Source of the DNA: a virus
Strand: one strand, 5' to 3'
DNA length: 29,675 nucleotides
Virus record (IMG/VR): IMGVR_UViG_3300011416_000031
Location: 1 to 29,675 of that record
The notes beneath the pieces were generated by a model. That model ran no database searches, was not told the origin of the DNA, and was given only the letters and a program-made list of their open reading frames with translations. This document shows, in pieces, positions 2,924-10,759 of the stretch; positions within the stretch are counted from its first letter, which is position 1, and the number at the start of each line of letters is the position of its first letter. The translations under genes were made by a program, and so were the position numbers.

Positions 2924-5260
2924 TTACTGCTCGAAAGCGTGGCCCTCTTCTGCTCTCCCTGGTGGCTCAACTACTGGGGTCATTACCTGCCCGACTCCAG
3001 CCATTTGCTTTTGCACCCTTAATTTCATGCTATTTGACGCAAGTTTTTCTTTGATTTGGTCAAGCGATATTTTTTCCTGTGTTGCATACTGAAGCATTGC
3101 TAATTCCCTTTTGACCATCAGTTCTCTTATTCTCATCTCTGCGTTGGTCTGAACTTCTTGTGCTTTTGTTTCGGCATAGATATTTTCGTGCGATCGGTCT
3201 ACATCGATCTTATGTTTTTGTATAGTTTGCCCTGCTATTGCAATGTCCTTTTCGTGGGCAATTTGTTTGTCTACATCTGCGGATTTAATTTTTTGCACCT
3301 CAATCGCTGGGACCATCGGCACCTTCTTGGCCATCTCGGCTTTCTTGGCGTCGTCCATGACCCATTTGTCAGGGATCATCCGCTTGGACTTCAGGACCTC
3401 AATCATGGCCTTGGCCGGGTCGAGTTCGTAGATCGGGTTGGCTGCCAGCTGCAGGAGCATGACTGCTTCCATCGCCTGGATCTCGCGCTCGACCAATGAG
3501 GTAGATCCGATGGCCTGTATCTTCATGTCCCCCTTGCAGTCTTCGGGGCCGTGCAGAAGCAGATACTCGTAGTAGCGTTTGATGTGGGGTTCGGTGACTC
3601 GCTCGTCGAAGATCCTGGCCAACCTGCGAAGGATGGCACTGGCATTCTTGTGCAGCAGTTCCATCCCGCCAACGGTATCCGGCGCCGTCCCCTGCTGACC
3701 CTGCATGATGAAGAAGATACCCGTAGCATCCTCCATCATCTTGTAGGCCAGTTGGATGATGGCTGTCAGTTCCTGCTGGATCATCGGGATGTTGACGGCC
3801 AGGAAGGCGTCTTCCATCTTTTTGAAGTCGCCCTGCTCAGTCGCCCACCAGATCTTCCGGGCGGTGAGTTCCCAGCGACCATTGGCCGGCACGACTGCAT
3901 TCTGGCGGATGACCATCATCGGCCCACTTGAAAGGCCGGCGTTGTCCATCAGGGCACGGGCGGCTGAGTTCAGCATCTCCTGCGGGGTGCGACCCTGCCG
4001 TGCGATACCTGTCCCCCACGGGCTGCCGGGGTTGCGCTGCCAGGGCATGAGGTCATATGGGAACTCACCAGACTCCAGGGGGTTGACGAAGGCCTTGATC
4101 GGTGTGTCGTTGACCATGGTCACGATTGCCGGCAGCATTTCCTTCGTGCTGTTCTTGCCCACGGTCTTGACGTTCATGGCCGACAAGTCGGAAACGTCCA
4201 CCAGGCCATAGTAGTACCAGACCTCGTACTCCTCGGAGTCCGCGGTATCTTGCTGATGTAGGCGCCGGCCGTCATCGTAGTTCTTTTTGTACGGGCCTTC
4301 GTCGAGCACCAGGTCGATCTGCTCCGACAGGTAACCTTTGAGACCCTTGAGGTCCTTCAACTGTTTGGCGTTGAGGAAGTCCCGCTCGAGGATGTACGAA
4401 CCCTTGTGGATATCGTCACCGCAGGCCGGGTCAGGAAACAGGTTCCAACACTCGACAGACCTGGACTTCGGTCCCACTGCGGTTGTGATCTCAAGGGATG
4501 TGCGTCCCTGAGTCTCCAGTGCCTTGCGTACCGTGTATTTATCAGGATAGGGGCCCTTGAGTATGCCTGTGCCAAGTTTGGCAGCGTCCTCTATAACCTT
4601 GCGGACCTCTGTGTGGTAACTCGATTCGACCAGCCAATCCTGAATCTTTGTCTCGCCCTTCTCGGCTTTCTTCTCGGCTTCGAGTTGGCGGGGAGATGTC
4701 TTCTCTGGGGATGGTGCAGGGGGTGCGGCCGGGACGCCGGGCATGGTCGGGTCAACCGGTGCCATGGGGTCGATAGGAGCGGTGGGTGCCCCGGGTACCT
4801 GCGGGACTTGTGGCTGCCCACCGGCAGCACTCTCGTCATCCTGGACCGGCGTAGCTTTGACCGAGAAGTTCCAGTCGCCGGCCGGCAGGAGGATATCCCC
4901 CATCCTGGCTGAAGCACTCTCTACGAACTGACGGGTGATATTGAAAAAGGATGTGCAGCGGGTTGTCGATGCGGAAGGTGTCTTGGATATCCCACCGCCT
5001 GTGGAGGGTGACTTCTGCCAACTGATCTGATCACGGTTGCCGTCGTCGACACCGAGGTAGAATTCGAGATCTTCGTTCCAGACGTCCTCGATCCCTGATT
5101 GCTTGCGGAACTTGATCGCATCGTCACGTTTCCTGGCGACTTCCTTGCCAATGGAATCGATCTTGATGTTCTTGGCTGCCCGGAGTTCATCCAAGAGAGA
5201 CTGGATATCCTCGGGGAGTTTGTCTTCCATGCCGTCTATTTCGATCTGCTGTGTGTCCAT
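2924..5260 (-). CDS. Portal (head-to-tail connector) protein
   Basis: A 778-residue protein forming the dodecameric ring through which DNA enters the capsid. An N-terminal helical domain is followed by a core with FVESASARMGDILLP near residue 115 and the block ECWNLFPDP. Further on come the typical FPYDLMPWQRNPGSPWGTGIARQ segment and the stem/clip region (QLAYKMMEDATGIFF, then GGMELLHKNASAILRRLARIF). Residues ~149-188 form a Pro/Ala-rich insert. The last ~110 residues are one long charged helix, as in the barrel of podovirus (P22-type) portals. ATG 5260 is chosen because GGTGG precedes it. A GTG 33 bases upstream has AAGGG touching it and would lie in a hairpin. The podovirus affinity is inference from length. 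Confidence 0.88.
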   Translation of the reverse strand: MDTQQIEIDGMEDKLPEDIQSLLDELRAAKNIKIDSIGKEVARKRDDAIKFRKQSGIEDVWNEDLEFYLGVDDGNRDQISWQKSPSTGGGISKTPSASTTRCTSFFNITRQFVESASARMGDILLPAGDWNFSVKATPVQDDESAAGGQPQVPQVPGAPTAPIDPMAPVDPTMPGVPAAPPAPSPEKTSPRQLEAEKKAEKGETKIQDWLVESSYHTEVRKVIEDAAKLGTGILKGPYPDKYTVRKALETQGRTSLEITTAVGPKSRSVECWNLFPDPACGDDIHKGSYILERDFLNAKQLKDLKGLKGYLSEQIDLVLDEGPYKKNYDDGRRLHQQDTADSEEYEVWYYYGLVDVSDLSAMNVKTVGKNSTKEMLPAIVTMVNDTPIKAFVNPLESGEFPYDLMPWQRNPGSPWGTGIARQGRTPQEMLNSAARALMDNAGLSSGPMMVIRQNAVVPANGRWELTARKIWWATEQGDFKKMEDAFLAVNIPMIQQELTAIIQLAYKMMEDATGIFFIMQGQQGTAPDTVGGMELLHKNASAILRRLARIFDERVTEPHIKRYYEYLLLHGPEDCKGDMKIQAIGSTSLVEREIQAMEAVMLLQLAANPIYELDPAKAMIEVLKSKRMIPDKWVMDDAKKAEMAKKVPMVPAIEVQKIKSADVDKQIAHEKDIAIAGQTIQKHKIDVDRSHENIYAETKAQEVQTNAEMRIRELMVKRELAMLQYATQEKISLDQIKEKLASNSMKLRVQKQMAGVGQVMTPVVEPPGRAEEGHAFEQ

Positions 5261-5275
5261 TTGTCCACCAAACAG

Positions 5276-5325
5276 GAAAGCCCCACTGCACACCCCTTAT
5301 AAAAGGAATGGACAGCAGGGCTTTC
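5276..5325 (-). promoter_or_regulatory. Long hairpin in portal leader
   Basis: GAAAGCCC and GGGCTTTC form a perfect 8-bp stem around a 34-base loop that itself contains the near-palindrome CCTTTTATAAGG. The structure ends 15 bases before the portal start codon. It could be an attenuator or an RNA processing site that sets portal dosage. It has only a short TTTC tail, so it would be a poor terminator. Confidence 0.4.
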
Positions 5326-5365
5326 GCACGGCTGAGTTCGGCGACTTAGTGCGCCGGGTACAAAA

Positions 5366-5656
5366 TTAAGCGCAAGATATTACAGGCTGTTCATCTTTGT
5401 CAACTGTTTTATTCAGAAGGCGTAAAGCGATTGTTTTTTTGATGCCGTCAGCAATGTATCTTTTTTCGGCGATGTTGAAGCACTTATTACCCCCTATGTC
5501 GATATAACCGACGCCATTAGCTGTCCATATCTGGATGTCTGGGTGCTTTGTGTTACCAAAACAGTATTGCCCCTGCCGCCAGTCTTCTGGATGCGCCATC
5601 ATTTGCCGCACAAAATCTACCACCCCTTCGGAAACCAAACACTTCGACCAGAACAT
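5366..5656 (-). CDS. Hypothetical protein upstream of portal
   Basis: A 96-residue protein starting at ATG 5656 (GGAGGGG upstream; a GTG two codons earlier is less well spaced). It has four cysteines (CLV, QYCF, KCF, ISCA) and a mixed alpha/beta pattern (DIQIWTANGVGYIDIGG). Not recognised. It is the last of a run of ten small genes between terL and portal. Confidence 0.6.
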   Translation of the reverse strand: MFWSKCLVSEGVVDFVRQMMAHPEDWRQGQYCFGNTKHPDIQIWTANGVGYIDIGGNKCFNIAEKRYIADGIKKTIALRLLNKTVDKDEQPVISCA

Positions 5657-5688
5657 AGTCACCCCTCCGCTTTATTGATGATCACCCG

Positions 5689-6012
5689 TCAGTCGTCGCC
5701 TTCGTAAATCGCCGTCTCAAAACACATCTGCCAGAGGACGGCGGCAGCTGAGAAGAACCTGCCCACACTTGCCAACATTACCATAATGGCAATGTCGTTT
5801 GTGACCGCCACCCATCTTGGTATAGACCGACCTGTTGCGCGAACCTTTCGCTTGGAATCATCACACATAAAAACCAAGGGGGTTAGCGCAGCTCCCACCC
5901 AAACCAGAAAGAGAATCACGTTCCTTGCTGGTTCAACGTGGAAATAAAGCCCGTAGACAGCACAGACGGTAGCACCGCCATTCAACAGCAACCCGATAAT
6001 AAGACGCTTCAT
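5689..6012 (-). CDS. Multi-pass inner membrane protein
   Basis: A 107-residue protein with about three hydrophobic segments: residues 3-24 (LIIGLLLNGGATVCAVYGLYF), about 31-48 (VILFLVWVGAALTPLVF) and about 69-94 (VAVTNDIAIMVMLASVG onward). A basic loop (DDSKRKVRATGRS) separates the second and third. Shine-Dalgarno GGGGGGAG overlaps the end of the preceding gene and the start codon overlaps its stop. Function unknown; superinfection exclusion is one possibility but nothing proves it. Confidence 0.65.
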   Translation of the reverse strand: MKRLIIGLLLNGGATVCAVYGLYFHVEPARNVILFLVWVGAALTPLVFMCDDSKRKVRATGRSIPRWVAVTNDIAIMVMLASVGRFFSAAAVLWQMCFETAIYEGDD

Positions 6013-6188
6013 TCTCCCCCCTTGTTGATGATCACCACCCGCGAATTCTTACCGACTTGAATGTCATCAATAGTGGTGACCACAGGTATGTAATGCCCCT
6101 TCTTGCCGAGGCCAAATTCCTTCTCCAGCAGGCCGACCAGCATCTTGGCAACCTGGTAGACTATCTTGGCTAGGCGGATCTCAGACAC
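6009..6188 (-). CDS. Small hypothetical protein
   Basis: A 59-residue protein read from a GTG at 6188, inside the end of the previous gene (8-base overlap). A longer frame extends upstream but lies over the neighbouring gene. The sequence is amphipathic (IRLAKIVYQVAKMLVGLLEKEF) followed by a beta-like part (HYIPVVTTIDDIQVGKNSRV). Unrecognised. Translational coupling is likely given the overlaps on both sides. Confidence 0.55.
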   Translation of the reverse strand: MSEIRLAKIVYQVAKMLVGLLEKEFGLGKKGHYIPVVTTIDDIQVGKNSRVVIINKGGE

Positions 6189-6483
6189 CGATGATCCTGC
6201 GCTCTTCGATTGACTTGCGCTCCTGCCATTTGGCACCCCACTCGATGGCCTCAAGCATGATGTCAGTCTGAATCAGTTTCATCTCAGGGGTGAGCCCGGC
6301 CGGAAGTCTTTCTGCGATGAACGATTGAATAAAATCTGATATTTCTTCAGCCTCGGCTTGTGCCTGCTTGTCCAACTGACTCATTTGATCCTCCATGTAT
6401 TTCAAATTGAATTGGTCAAGCCTGTCGATGACCGGCTGGATGATTGCCTGGAACTTCCGGTGGAATCTGTCCCAGTCGCTCAC
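6181..6483 (-). CDS. Helical small protein, unknown
   Basis: A 100-residue helical, charged protein beginning at a GTG that overlaps the upstream stop (GTGA). It contains VSDWDRFHRKF, QMSQLDKQAQAEAEEISDFI and a conserved-looking end (EAIEWGAKWQERKSIEERR). No motif known to me. The end pattern recalls small phage proteins that ride between terminase and portal genes. Confidence 0.6.
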   Translation of the reverse strand: MSDWDRFHRKFQAIIQPVIDRLDQFNLKYMEDQMSQLDKQAQAEAEEISDFIQSFIAERLPAGLTPEMKLIQTDIMLEAIEWGAKWQERKSIEERRIIGV

Positions 6484-8491: not shown

Positions 8492-10759
8492 TCAATACCC
8501 CATTGTCCGACTGATCGGCTGGAAATCATCTATCCTCGGCATCGTTGTGATCGGGTCGTCGTTGGTCATCTCTTCTATGACCTGGCAGGCATAACCGAAT
8601 GAGTCGCTATTGCTGACCAGCATCCCCTCGGCCAGGTAACAGTTATGCTTCTCCACCGTCAGGTTGTAGACTGGCTGCCCTTCTACGTCTGAAGTCTCGA
8701 GCTTTACAATTCTTGCCGCAGAACTTTGATTTGGTAGGGTAGTAAGTGACATATTCCTTGCCACAGACTGTGCAATTCTTAGCCACAGGTTGACGCTTTT
8801 CCCATGCTGCCTTCCCGTTTGCGCTATGCCATGCTCTGCCTTCTTCTGTGCCGTGCCACTCCCTTGCAGCAAGTTGGGCTTTCTCAAGTGCGGCCATGGC
8901 TCCAGGGGACCCAATCCATTTCTGGATGGCAGCGTTTGTTTTCCATCGCTCGGCGTTTCTTGCTCTGTTCTCTGGCCTGCGCCTTGCTTCGTGGGAGAGT
9001 TCCCGTGCTGCAGGCAGGATCTCTCTGGTGTTACGATCACTGACTTGCCACGACCCTTTGAGACCGTGGTGCCGCATGTGTTCCGACTTGGGAAGCAGTT
9101 CAAAATTAGAGAGATCGTTGTGGCGCTTATCTTCGTCAATATGGTGGACATCATACCCCTCGGGGATTGGTCCGTTTGCTTTGATCCACATGTCTCTGTG
9201 GAGTGCTCTTGGTGTCTGCTTCCATTTATCATGACAATAGAAATACTTTCCCGTAAACCGATACCTGCGTCCATCGAAAACGACAACATCGCCGGCCATA
9301 ATACACCTCCATCAATTAAGATGGAGTCACCATACACCAAGTCTCCAGCGAATACAATACCATTAAGCGTCAGCATCCTGTGATTCGGTGTGACCCGAAG
9401 TTTTTTTCCATCCGCAAGGGTGATGGTTACCAGTTTTTTTGACAGCCCGGACACGCCTGCATTGATCACTAGGCCCTGGTCACCCGTTGGCAGGATAACT
9501 TTGTCGCCGGCTTGAACTGTTTCAATGGGCACCAGTCCTCTGTCCAGCAACACCCTCTCGCCGGCCGGCAGGCAGCCATGGCTATACTCATCGTGTATCG
9601 GAGTGGCATCCGCACCGTTCGCTCTCTCAGGGCGCCGGTATCGTTTCAAACACTCGAGCAGGTCCTTGGTCTTCTCCTTGTCGAATACCCACCGCGGGAA
9701 GGCTGCCCGGCCGACTTTGATCCGGTCCTCTTCGTTGGTCTTCGGCACACGCTTAACCCTGAACCTGTACTTGGCCAGGATTTTGGCGTCTGTGGTCCCG
9801 GTCTTCCGCTCCTCGGAGAACCCGTCGTGGGGCAGGAACATGAATCCCCAGTTATACGGCTTCTGCCTAAGAAGGATTGCACACTCGTCAGTCGTAGTCT
9901 TGTTGACCTGGAGGTAGTCGATGCACCTGACCTCCGACCGGGACCGCTGCACCATGGTGATCGCCATGTTGTCCGCAAAGCCCAGGTCCCAGATTGCATG
10001 CACCTTGAGGTTCGGATCGTACGGCAGGAACGTCACCCTCTGCTCGGCCTGGGCCTTGGCAACTTCTTTGGCGTAGATGGCGCCGGCGACCGCGGCCTTG
10101 CATGCGCCTAACCAGATGTTATCGTAATCGTCCGGTGCAGTTGCCAGACAGTGCAACCTCTCGAGCTCGAGGACGTTCGGAAACCATGGATTGTCAGTGT
10201 AATTGATGAAGCACACCCAGGCATTGGCGGGAGGGTTGGTGACAAACCTGACGTACGTGGCGTCGGTGTCGAGTTCCGGGTTGAACGTAACCCATATCTC
10301 TGAGCACTCGAGGGTGACCATGTCTTCTTTGCGGATCGTCGGGCAGAGAAGGTCCCACGACTTCTTGGTAACCGTTTGCGCTTCTTCCACCCAGCAAATG
10401 TCGACCCCTTCGTATGACTTGATCGAGTGAGCGGTCAGATCAGAAAGGCCGGTGAACAGGAACTCCGTGCCGTTCCGGCCGCGGATGATGTTGTTCTGGA
10501 CGTCATAGAACCAGTCAAGCTGCATGCCCTCGATCTGGTCCTTGAGTAGTTTATGGACTGAGTCGGCCAGGGTCTTCTGAATCTCCCTGGTACACAGGAC
10601 CCTGAGTTTCTTCCTGCTCCCCAGGATCAGCAGGGCCCGCGCCACCGACCAGGACTTGGCGGAACCGCGGCCACCATACATAACCTTGTAGCGCATGGGA
10701 CGGAACATCGGTGCTAATTTTGGCGGGAATCTGACCTGGATCTTTAGCCGGGCATCCAT
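8492..10759 (-). CDS. terL: Terminase large subunit with in-frame intein
   Basis: A 755-codon precursor. After intein removal the 433-residue extein is the usual size for a PBSX/Terminase_3-type packaging motor, an ATPase plus nuclease that cuts concatemers and pumps DNA through the portal. ATPase motifs are Walker A GGRGSAKS (29-36), Walker B ICWVEE (121-126) and the coupling motif VTFNP (157-161). Nuclease acidic residues are D258 (IWDLG) and D312 (PHDG). The third motif is SHG followed by SDSFGY, and the intein sits exactly between its halves. The frame is open through the intein even though an HNH gene occupies another frame there. terS ends 3 bases upstream. Unless splicing works, the nuclease site is not assembled. 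Confidence 0.93.
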   Translation of the reverse strand: MDARLKIQVRFPPKLAPMFRPMRYKVMYGGRGSAKSWSVARALLILGSRKKLRVLCTREIQKTLADSVHKLLKDQIEGMQLDWFYDVQNNIIRGRNGTEFLFTGLSDLTAHSIKSYEGVDICWVEEAQTVTKKSWDLLCPTIRKEDMVTLECSEIWVTFNPELDTDATYVRFVTNPPANAWVCFINYTDNPWFPNVLELERLHCLATAPDDYDNIWLGACKAAVAGAIYAKEVAKAQAEQRVTFLPYDPNLKVHAIWDLGFADNMAITMVQRSRSEVRCIDYLQVNKTTTDECAILLRQKPYNWGFMFLPHDGFSEERKTGTTDAKILAKYRFRVKRVPKTNEEDRIKVGRAAFPRWVFDKEKTKDLLECLKRYRRPERANGADATPIHDEYSHGCLPAGERVLLDRGLVPIETVQAGDKVILPTGDQGLVINAGVSGLSKKLVTITLADGKKLRVTPNHRMLTLNGIVFAGDLVYGDSILIDGGVLWPAMLSFSMDAGIGLRESISIVMINGSRHQEHSTETCGSKQTDQSPRGMMSTILTKISATTISLILNCFPSRNTCGTTVSKGRGKSVIVTPERSCLQHGNSPTKQGAGQRTEQETPSDGKQTLPSRNGLGPLEPWPHLRKPNLLQGSGTAQKKAEHGIAQTGRQHGKSVNLWLRIAQSVARNMSLTTLPNQSSAARIVKLETSDVEGQPVYNLTVEKHNCYLAEGMLVSNSDSFGYACQVIEEMTNDDPITTMPRIDDFQPISRTMGY
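8609..9574 (-). mobile_element. Intein inside TerL nuclease motif
   Basis: Residues 396-717 of the precursor (322 residues) form a class 1 (Hint) intein. Block A begins with Cys1 (CLPAGERVLLDRGLVPIETV). Block B contains the Thr-x-x-His (RVTPNHRML). Block F/G reads VYNLTVEKHNCYLAEGMLVS and ends in Asn before Ser+1 of the extein. The penultimate residue is Ser, not the usual His. Between GDLVYGDSIL and block F are about 200 residues rich in Ser, Thr, Gln, Gly and Arg with no endonuclease motif in this frame. That stretch is the out-of-frame reading of the HNH gene. The insertion point lies at the active-site Asp of TerL, a typical conserved-site location for inteins. Confidence 0.93.
8643..9299 (-). 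CDS. HNH homing endonuclease nested out of frame in the intein
   Basis: A 218-residue protein starting at ATG 9299 behind GGAGGTG (5-base gap), in a frame shifted from terL. The N-terminus (VVVFDGRRYRFTGKYFYCH) leads to the HNH core: VHHIDEDKRHNDLSNFELLP at 51-70 and KSEHMRHH at 71-78. A basic helical region follows, then a putative zinc site C176/C179/C194/C198, and an RRRR tail. The core resembles I-HmuI-type HNH enzymes. The stop TAA falls inside the His-Asn of intein block F, so its last ~25 codons overlap essential splicing residues. It would be made by internal initiation from the terL message and would drive homing of the intein. Confidence 0.92.
   Translation of the reverse strand: MAGDVVVFDGRRYRFTGKYFYCHDKWKQTPRALHRDMWIKANGPIPEGYDVHHIDEDKRHNDLSNFELLPKSEHMRHHGLKGSWQVSDRNTREILPAARELSHEARRRPENRARNAERWKTNAAIQKWIGSPGAMAALEKAQLAAREWHGTEEGRAWHSANGKAAWEKRQPVAKNCTVCGKEYVTYYPTKSKFCGKNCKARDFRRRRAASLQPDGGEA

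Follow-up and report, generated by a model that had tools for sequence, protein, structure and literature searches.

A large-terminase gene (terL) of viral origin very probably carries a mobile intein whose homing endonuclease is encoded by a separate, overlapping HNH gene in another reading frame, with this gene translated by internal initiation and TerL spliced through a linker made from the same DNA. The window (the whole 29,675-nt stretch analyzed here) comes from the IMG/VR record IMGVR_UViG_3300011416_000031, and both the terL and the HNH ORFs lie on its minus strand. The overlap is real, widespread as a means of packing a mobile element, and subject to selection; the splicing of TerL, initiation within the terL mRNA, cleavage of a target, and homing are all inferred. 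A first-pass annotation of this DNA had already proposed that an HNH gene lies within a TerL intein in a different frame. This is borne out by the ORFs at the positions given below, by their Pfam matches, and by more than 70 distinct relatives.

The terL ORF (8492..10759, minus strand) encodes 755 residues consisting of an N-extein, an intein, and a C-extein, and matches Terminase_3 (E = 4.5e-32), Intein_splicing (E = 2.7e-11), and phrog_3717 (E = 3e-62). The N-extein (TerL residues 1–395; 9575..10759, minus strand) matches Terminase_3 (E = 1.3e-32) and is 50% identical to TerLs of Pseudomonas phages up to residue 395, and the C-extein (8492..8608, minus strand), which begins with Ser, matches SDMFRYVGQAVEIM of phage JBD90. 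Removal of the intein in silico yields IHDEYSHG-SDSFGYACQVIEEM. A match to this is LHDEYSHGSDMFRYVGQAVEIM in the TerL of Pseudomonas phage JBD90, which has no insert. This inteinless protein aligns across IHDEYSHG/SDSFGY and provides an exact empty site, located in the nuclease motif of TerL; as required of an intein, the host protein is intact in this alignment once the insert has been removed.

The intein comprises 322 residues from Cys1 to Asn322 (TerL residues 396–717; 8609..9574, minus strand), as delimited by TIGR01445, TIGR01443, the JBD90 empty site, and terminal residues read from the sequence. The N-terminal half of its Hint domain (blocks A and B, residues 1–86; 9317..9574, minus strand), detected with a purpose-built N-block HMM, opens with Cys1 in CLPAGERVLL and contains TPNHRML as block B (TxxH; TIGR01445, E = 3.6e-05), which fulfils the requirements for an intein N-terminus. 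The C-terminal half (blocks F and G; 8609..8677, minus strand; purpose-built C-block HMM, E = 3e-14) reads VYNLTVEKHNCYLAEGMLVSN and is followed by the +1 Ser; its end, LVSN/S, has the Asn-then-Ser expected of an intein, with a TIGR01443 value of 0.002 that is above the cut-off of that model. At the penultimate position, Ser replaces the His that is usual there, as it does in other relatives. In the AlphaFold model, both halves have a pLDDT of approximately 95, compared with mostly 39–64, with a few helical stretches, for residues 93–280 (8735..9298, minus strand), the stop-free linker obtained when the HNH DNA is read in the intein frame. The nearest solved Hint structure is that of the gp41-1 intein.

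The slot between blocks B and F is the usual place of an intein endonuclease. In the window it is occupied by the HNH gene (8643..9299, minus strand), of which the last 35 nt overlap the start of block F. The offset of 1460 nt between this gene and the terL ORF places them in different reading frames, the intein being read in the HNH+1 frame. The predicted product of 218 residues matches HNH_3 (E = 1.4e-14) and phrog_15471 (E = 1.3e-26) and is predicted to fold (AlphaFold mean pLDDT of 86); the gene is nested in relatives too. Its catalytic motif, the HNH_3 Pfam stretch (residues 32–76; 9072..9206, minus strand), is intact; across 61 HNH relatives, H52, H53, and H74 are invariant and N60, N61, and N65 nearly so. 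Equally invariant are C176, C179, C194, and C198, which form a C-terminal four-cysteine module (residues 176–198; 8706..8774, minus strand). The earlier suggestion that one DNA encodes both a mostly unstructured linker and an HNH protein is thus supported by AlphaFold confidence, by the splicing residues and empty site, and by the codon-position bias described below, with both products still to be shown.

These features suggest a mechanism in which the homing endonuclease would be a separate gene lodged between Hint blocks B and F and not a domain of the intein. Ribosomes coming from the terL start would read through the insert and turn the HNH DNA into a stop-free, largely unstructured linker, and the two Hint halves would then assemble with each other and splice TerL within the nuclease motif (splicing being inferred). 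Other ribosomes, initiating at the internal GGAGGTG-ATG, would produce a free HNH protein of approximately 25 kDa (an inferred initiation). This protein may cut intein-free terL alleles and so drive the homing of intein and HNH gene together; the cleavage site and homing itself are inferred.

By sequence, the nearest solved HNH protein is I-HmuI (E = 0.0016; PDB 1u3e), a homing endonuclease from a phage intron with a related HNH domain, which is also the best, but weak, fold match. Group I introns are the home of HNH genes such as that for I-HmuI, and the insert could accordingly be imagined as a group I or group II intron with an HNH gene that is removed at the RNA level. This alternative, which the first-pass annotation had named as a possible refutation, found no support, as no Rfam intron family matched up to an E-value of 10 in a search for a catalytic RNA core. 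Moreover, both Hint halves are present in full in the insert, together with Cys1, Asn, and the +1 Ser, and its frame is kept open. The intron reading was rejected on these grounds and can practically be dismissed; unlike I-HmuI, the HNH protein of the window is carried by an intein, and it bears the four-cysteine module.

Among known systems, canonical homing inteins such as those of mycobacteriophage TerLs (PMC5050341) share with the window the Hint domain, the terL host, and an endonuclease between blocks B and F. However, a canonical homing intein has its endonuclease in frame with the splicing domain, whereas that of the window lies in another frame and would form a protein of its own. The site of insertion likewise differs, being in the TerL nuclease motif here and in the ATPase domain in the mycobacteriophages (PMC5050341). 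The closest precedent comes from the methylase insert of phage ShiLan, with its HNH hidden in a second frame. The ShiLan-domain and Pacc40 inserts in phage DNA methylases encode an HNH out of frame with the host gene, introduce no stop into that gene, are disordered when read in its frame, and show signs of homing (Arsenault, Gosselin, Gogarten 2025, PMC11855218). In those cases no splicing domain and no ribosome-binding site were found, and the insert is presumed to stay in the host protein (PMC11855218). The window, which likewise has its HNH in the other frame of a stop-free insert, departs from that type, which lacks a self-splicing domain, because its HNH gene is surrounded by a complete Hint domain with intact splicing residues; a ribosome-binding site is also present. 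The ShiLan and Pacc40 HNH genes were not among the matches of a tblastn search of phage records with the window HNH protein. The full-text literature searched, from which most subscription papers and preprints are absent, yielded no account of a splicing intein with its endonuclease in a different frame. PMC11855218 cites a 2025 preprint about non-canonical intein architecture in actinophages, and priority with respect to this preprint is uncertain.

Across the HNH gene, the intein frame contains no stops and the third frame contains 15. About ten chance stops had originally been expected in the second frame, but this figure was wrong: synonymous resampling of the HNH protein with local codon usage gives 2.5 expected stops (probability of none, 0.04), and shuffling of the protein's own codons gives 1.4 (probability of none, 0.15). 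Expectation in the HNH+1 frame is low because a stop requires a codon ending in TA or TG followed by a codon that begins with a purine. In the reverse null, in which the intein-frame protein is kept and an open HNH frame is asked for, 6.3 stops are expected (probability of none, 0.002). Taken alone, the locus in the window is thus weak evidence (probability of about 0.04–0.15) and relatives were therefore examined.

A tblastn search of phage records with the HNH protein matched genes annotated only as terL in three phages, and in these, as in a fecal contig without annotation, the HNH lies within a TerL intein and is displaced from its frame in the same direction as in the window. Scanning of IMG/VR and GTDB genome contigs with a profile identified at least 133 loci, with only the best 80 contributed by IMG/VR. 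Among the matches listed, 142 loci formed 121 clusters at 90% HNH identity, which were analyzed with HMMs for both Hint halves and for the HNH. Both halves are present in one uninterrupted ORF around the HNH, with the intein in the HNH+1 frame, in 69 of these 121 clusters (among the matches listed). Four partial cases bring the HNH+1 total to 73 of 121 on the same basis (among the matches listed): L034, L113, and L114, in which Hint is matched at one end only, and L093. In L093 (3816–3852), a single frame change or indel just upstream of the HNH detaches the Hint N-terminal half, the frame across the HNH being open; this may reflect either sequencing error or decay. In three other clusters (L026, L076, L080) the intein lies in the HNH+2 frame, with the C-terminal block read by eye. 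The remaining clusters among the matches listed have a broken intein frame (12 of 121) or no Hint match (33 of 121), and in none of the 121 is the HNH in frame with the intein. The search for the same overlapped frame in related terL inteins, proposed earlier as a check, therefore found it nested with an open intein frame in 76 of 121 clusters (among the matches listed), and the layout is not the one-off that it might have been taken for.

The splicing residues are retained in these relatives: among the matches listed, Cys1 is present in 69/69 nested inteins, and of those extending to the intein end, 68/68 have a terminal Asn followed by Cys or Ser at position +1. The exteins are mostly terminases, with Terminase_6N in 37/69 and Terminase_3 in 34/69 (overlapping counts among the matches listed), and one is a DegT-type aminotransferase (L073).

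With these relatives, the possibility that the overlap arose by chance, or that the HNH is a decayed remnant without function, loses what little force the probability of 0.04–0.15 at the window locus lends it. Among the matches listed, synonymous resampling predicts 3.87 intein-frame stops per gene for the 69 nested genes, which have none, whereas their unused frame has 19.2 stops vs. 17.6 expected; the three genes with the intein in the HNH+2 frame also have none, compared with 10.9–17.6 expected. By contrast, 20 free-standing relatives among the matches listed have 5.50 stops vs. 5.62 expected, which indicates that an open second frame is maintained only in genes where it has to join two Hint halves. 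Since the nested set was classified partly by its open frame, the stop-free counts are not fully independent of that classification, and the fair contrast among the matches listed is of 76 open and 12 broken intein clusters with the free-standing genes, of which 1/20 is stop-free. In 81 close pairs, which share members and are not independent, substitutions number 3034, 2508, and 5467 at HNH codon positions 1, 2, and 3, respectively. Amino-acid conservation of the linker is not above the null set by HNH constraint (z = 0.31; unused frame, z = 0.52), and the idea of a linker conserved for a function of its own was rejected on this ground. Together, the third-position excess and the unconserved linker show that the HNH frame carries the protein-level selection and that the intein frame must mainly lack stops. 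On this comparative evidence the overlap is far beyond chance, and with the catalytic and cysteine residues invariant, a chance or functionless HNH is barely credible.

How the HNH is translated is less directly supported. The ribosome site noted in the first-pass annotation is present: a Shine-Dalgarno (SD) sequence, GGAGGTG (9304..9310, minus strand), with an SD score of 7, the highest of the set, precedes the HNH ATG; its spacing is 4 nt (TATT) and not 5 as had been stated. Among the matches listed, an SD of at least 5 nt is found in 22% of 68 nested genes, vs. 5% at other start codons, and 62% of the nested relatives have no SD match of at least 4 nt at the best start. The frames are one base apart, and with so many relatives lacking a clear SD, the HNH might instead be made as a frameshift fusion to the intein N-terminal half. 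In the window, however, the HNH frame is closed by a stop four codons ahead of the ATG, which leaves almost no room for a frameshift, and the 7-nt SD stands ahead of that ATG; in relatives the median distance from upstream stop to HNH domain is only 17 codons. A frameshift fusion is thus decidedly improbable. No internal promoter was found on the coding strand before the HNH, and together with the scarce room for frameshifting this favors internal initiation on the terL mRNA, an inference made without expression data.

In gut-type loci (L031, L048, L083, L060, L020, L064, and others) no SD is seen, and the apparent ATG follows an A-rich stretch inside block B, approximately 45 nt before the HNH domain; judged from sequence, this may suggest another way of initiation in those hosts. 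In the window, a perfect 7-bp hairpin, CTCCATC-TTAATT-GATGGAG (9307..9326, minus strand), holds part of the SD in its 3′ arm. It could be opened by ribosomes in the intein frame, making HNH translation dependent on their passage, but this is speculative and weakly supported: the fold z-score is -1.4 in the window, and SD pairing over 26 relatives (0.64 vs. 0.50 in shuffles) is only a mild tendency. A regulatory hairpin over the SD was accordingly not upheld.

Stops in the intein frame of homologues had been named in advance as a possible refutation. They do occur, in 12 clusters, but 11 of these (L009, L018, L075, L079, L094, L095, L096, L103, L104, L110, L120) have, among the matches listed, an IntN half, then the HNH, then a separate IntC ORF, and are split inteins; in the twelfth, L118, no IntC was detected. 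Several split clusters (e.g., L075, L018, L110) have a start codon and SD-like purines just before IntC, and the 11 TerL loci are possible new split inteins, as far as their gene order can tell. Dassa et al. in 2009 reportedly described, as "fractured genes," split inteins whose halves are separated by a homing gene. Such systems resemble the present family in having a free endonuclease gene between IntN and IntC, which is exactly the layout of the 11 clusters; that gp41-1 is the nearest solved Hint is a further point of resemblance. The window is not itself a split intein, since its IntN and IntC lie on one polypeptide (a single ORF) joined by the overlapped linker, and its nuclease is an HNH. 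The split layout was also seen in Vibrio phage 1.245.O (L146, NC_055736, 2950–3940), where TerL ends in an IntN half and is followed by an unannotated HNH ORF and then by a "hedgehog/hint" gene that consists of IntC and the C-extein.

Free-standing members of the HNH family flank terL or terS in PAE1, SN1, CL2, EauM-23, Poludnitsa, and BP10. A part in packaging is known for phage HNH proteins encoded beside the terminase (Kala et al. 2014, as cited in PMC12613952), and the HNH could be at terL mainly as a DNA-packaging factor working with the terminase, and not for homing, a role that these flanking positions would suit. This is unlikely, as the HNH gene sits inside an intein at a precise insertion point, its best structural relative is the homing enzyme I-HmuI, and the same family occurs inside the intein of the DegT-type aminotransferase of L073. 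That gene (DegT/DnrJ/EryC1 family, 3075–6242) has two Hint matches, one around the nested out-of-frame HNH and the other with an in-frame LAGLIDADG. In-frame LAGLIDADG domains were found in the ORFs of L026, L106, and L073 (a second Hint match being shown for L073), which means that a single gene can combine the in-frame and the nested layout.

In the HNH tree, 18 changes were counted among free, nested, and split states, with about half of the forks weak. In some pairs the HNH and Hint are approximately 65–75% alike and the exteins less than 30%, as joint movement of intein and HNH would predict; overall, however, HNH distances correlate with extein distances (r = 0.66), and much inheritance may therefore be vertical. 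The likely origin is a free-standing HNH gene beside terL that entered a mini-intein and gave rise to the overlapped form or to a split intein. More broadly, these loci may constitute a distinct and widespread class of mobile inteins in bacterial and archaeal viruses, with a homing endonuclease gene that always overlaps the intein out of frame and is translated independently, a class that would arise repeatedly from free-standing HNH genes flanking terL and interconvert with split inteins, linking free homing genes, split inteins, and canonical inteins; this proposal could equally prove right or wrong.

If the mobile-intein reading is true, inteins need not carry their endonuclease as a domain, as a mobile gene can be hidden in the second frame of a linker, and nuclease synthesis would be uncoupled from splicing. 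It would also suggest how inteins gain endonucleases, namely through invasion by a neighboring free gene with an open second frame as the sole constraint, and would unite the free-standing, nested, and split states within a single HNH family. For studies of how overlapping frames originate, the nested loci provide a large natural set.

In Acinetobacter phage Highwayman (L003) the HNH is nested in the TerL intein, and a related HNH in phage BP10 (L147) is free-standing before terS, with no TerL intein annotated there. A plasmid search returned one match, Halobacterium sp. GSL-19 plasmid pGSL19_54.9 (L145, 1400–3712), where the nested HNH lies in a terL-like Hint-domain gene just before a portal gene, on an archaeal plasmid with other phage genes. 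The nested HNH genes are unannotated in this plasmid and in phages Highwayman, TJE1 (a Tetrasphaera phage), and LS06-2018-MD07.
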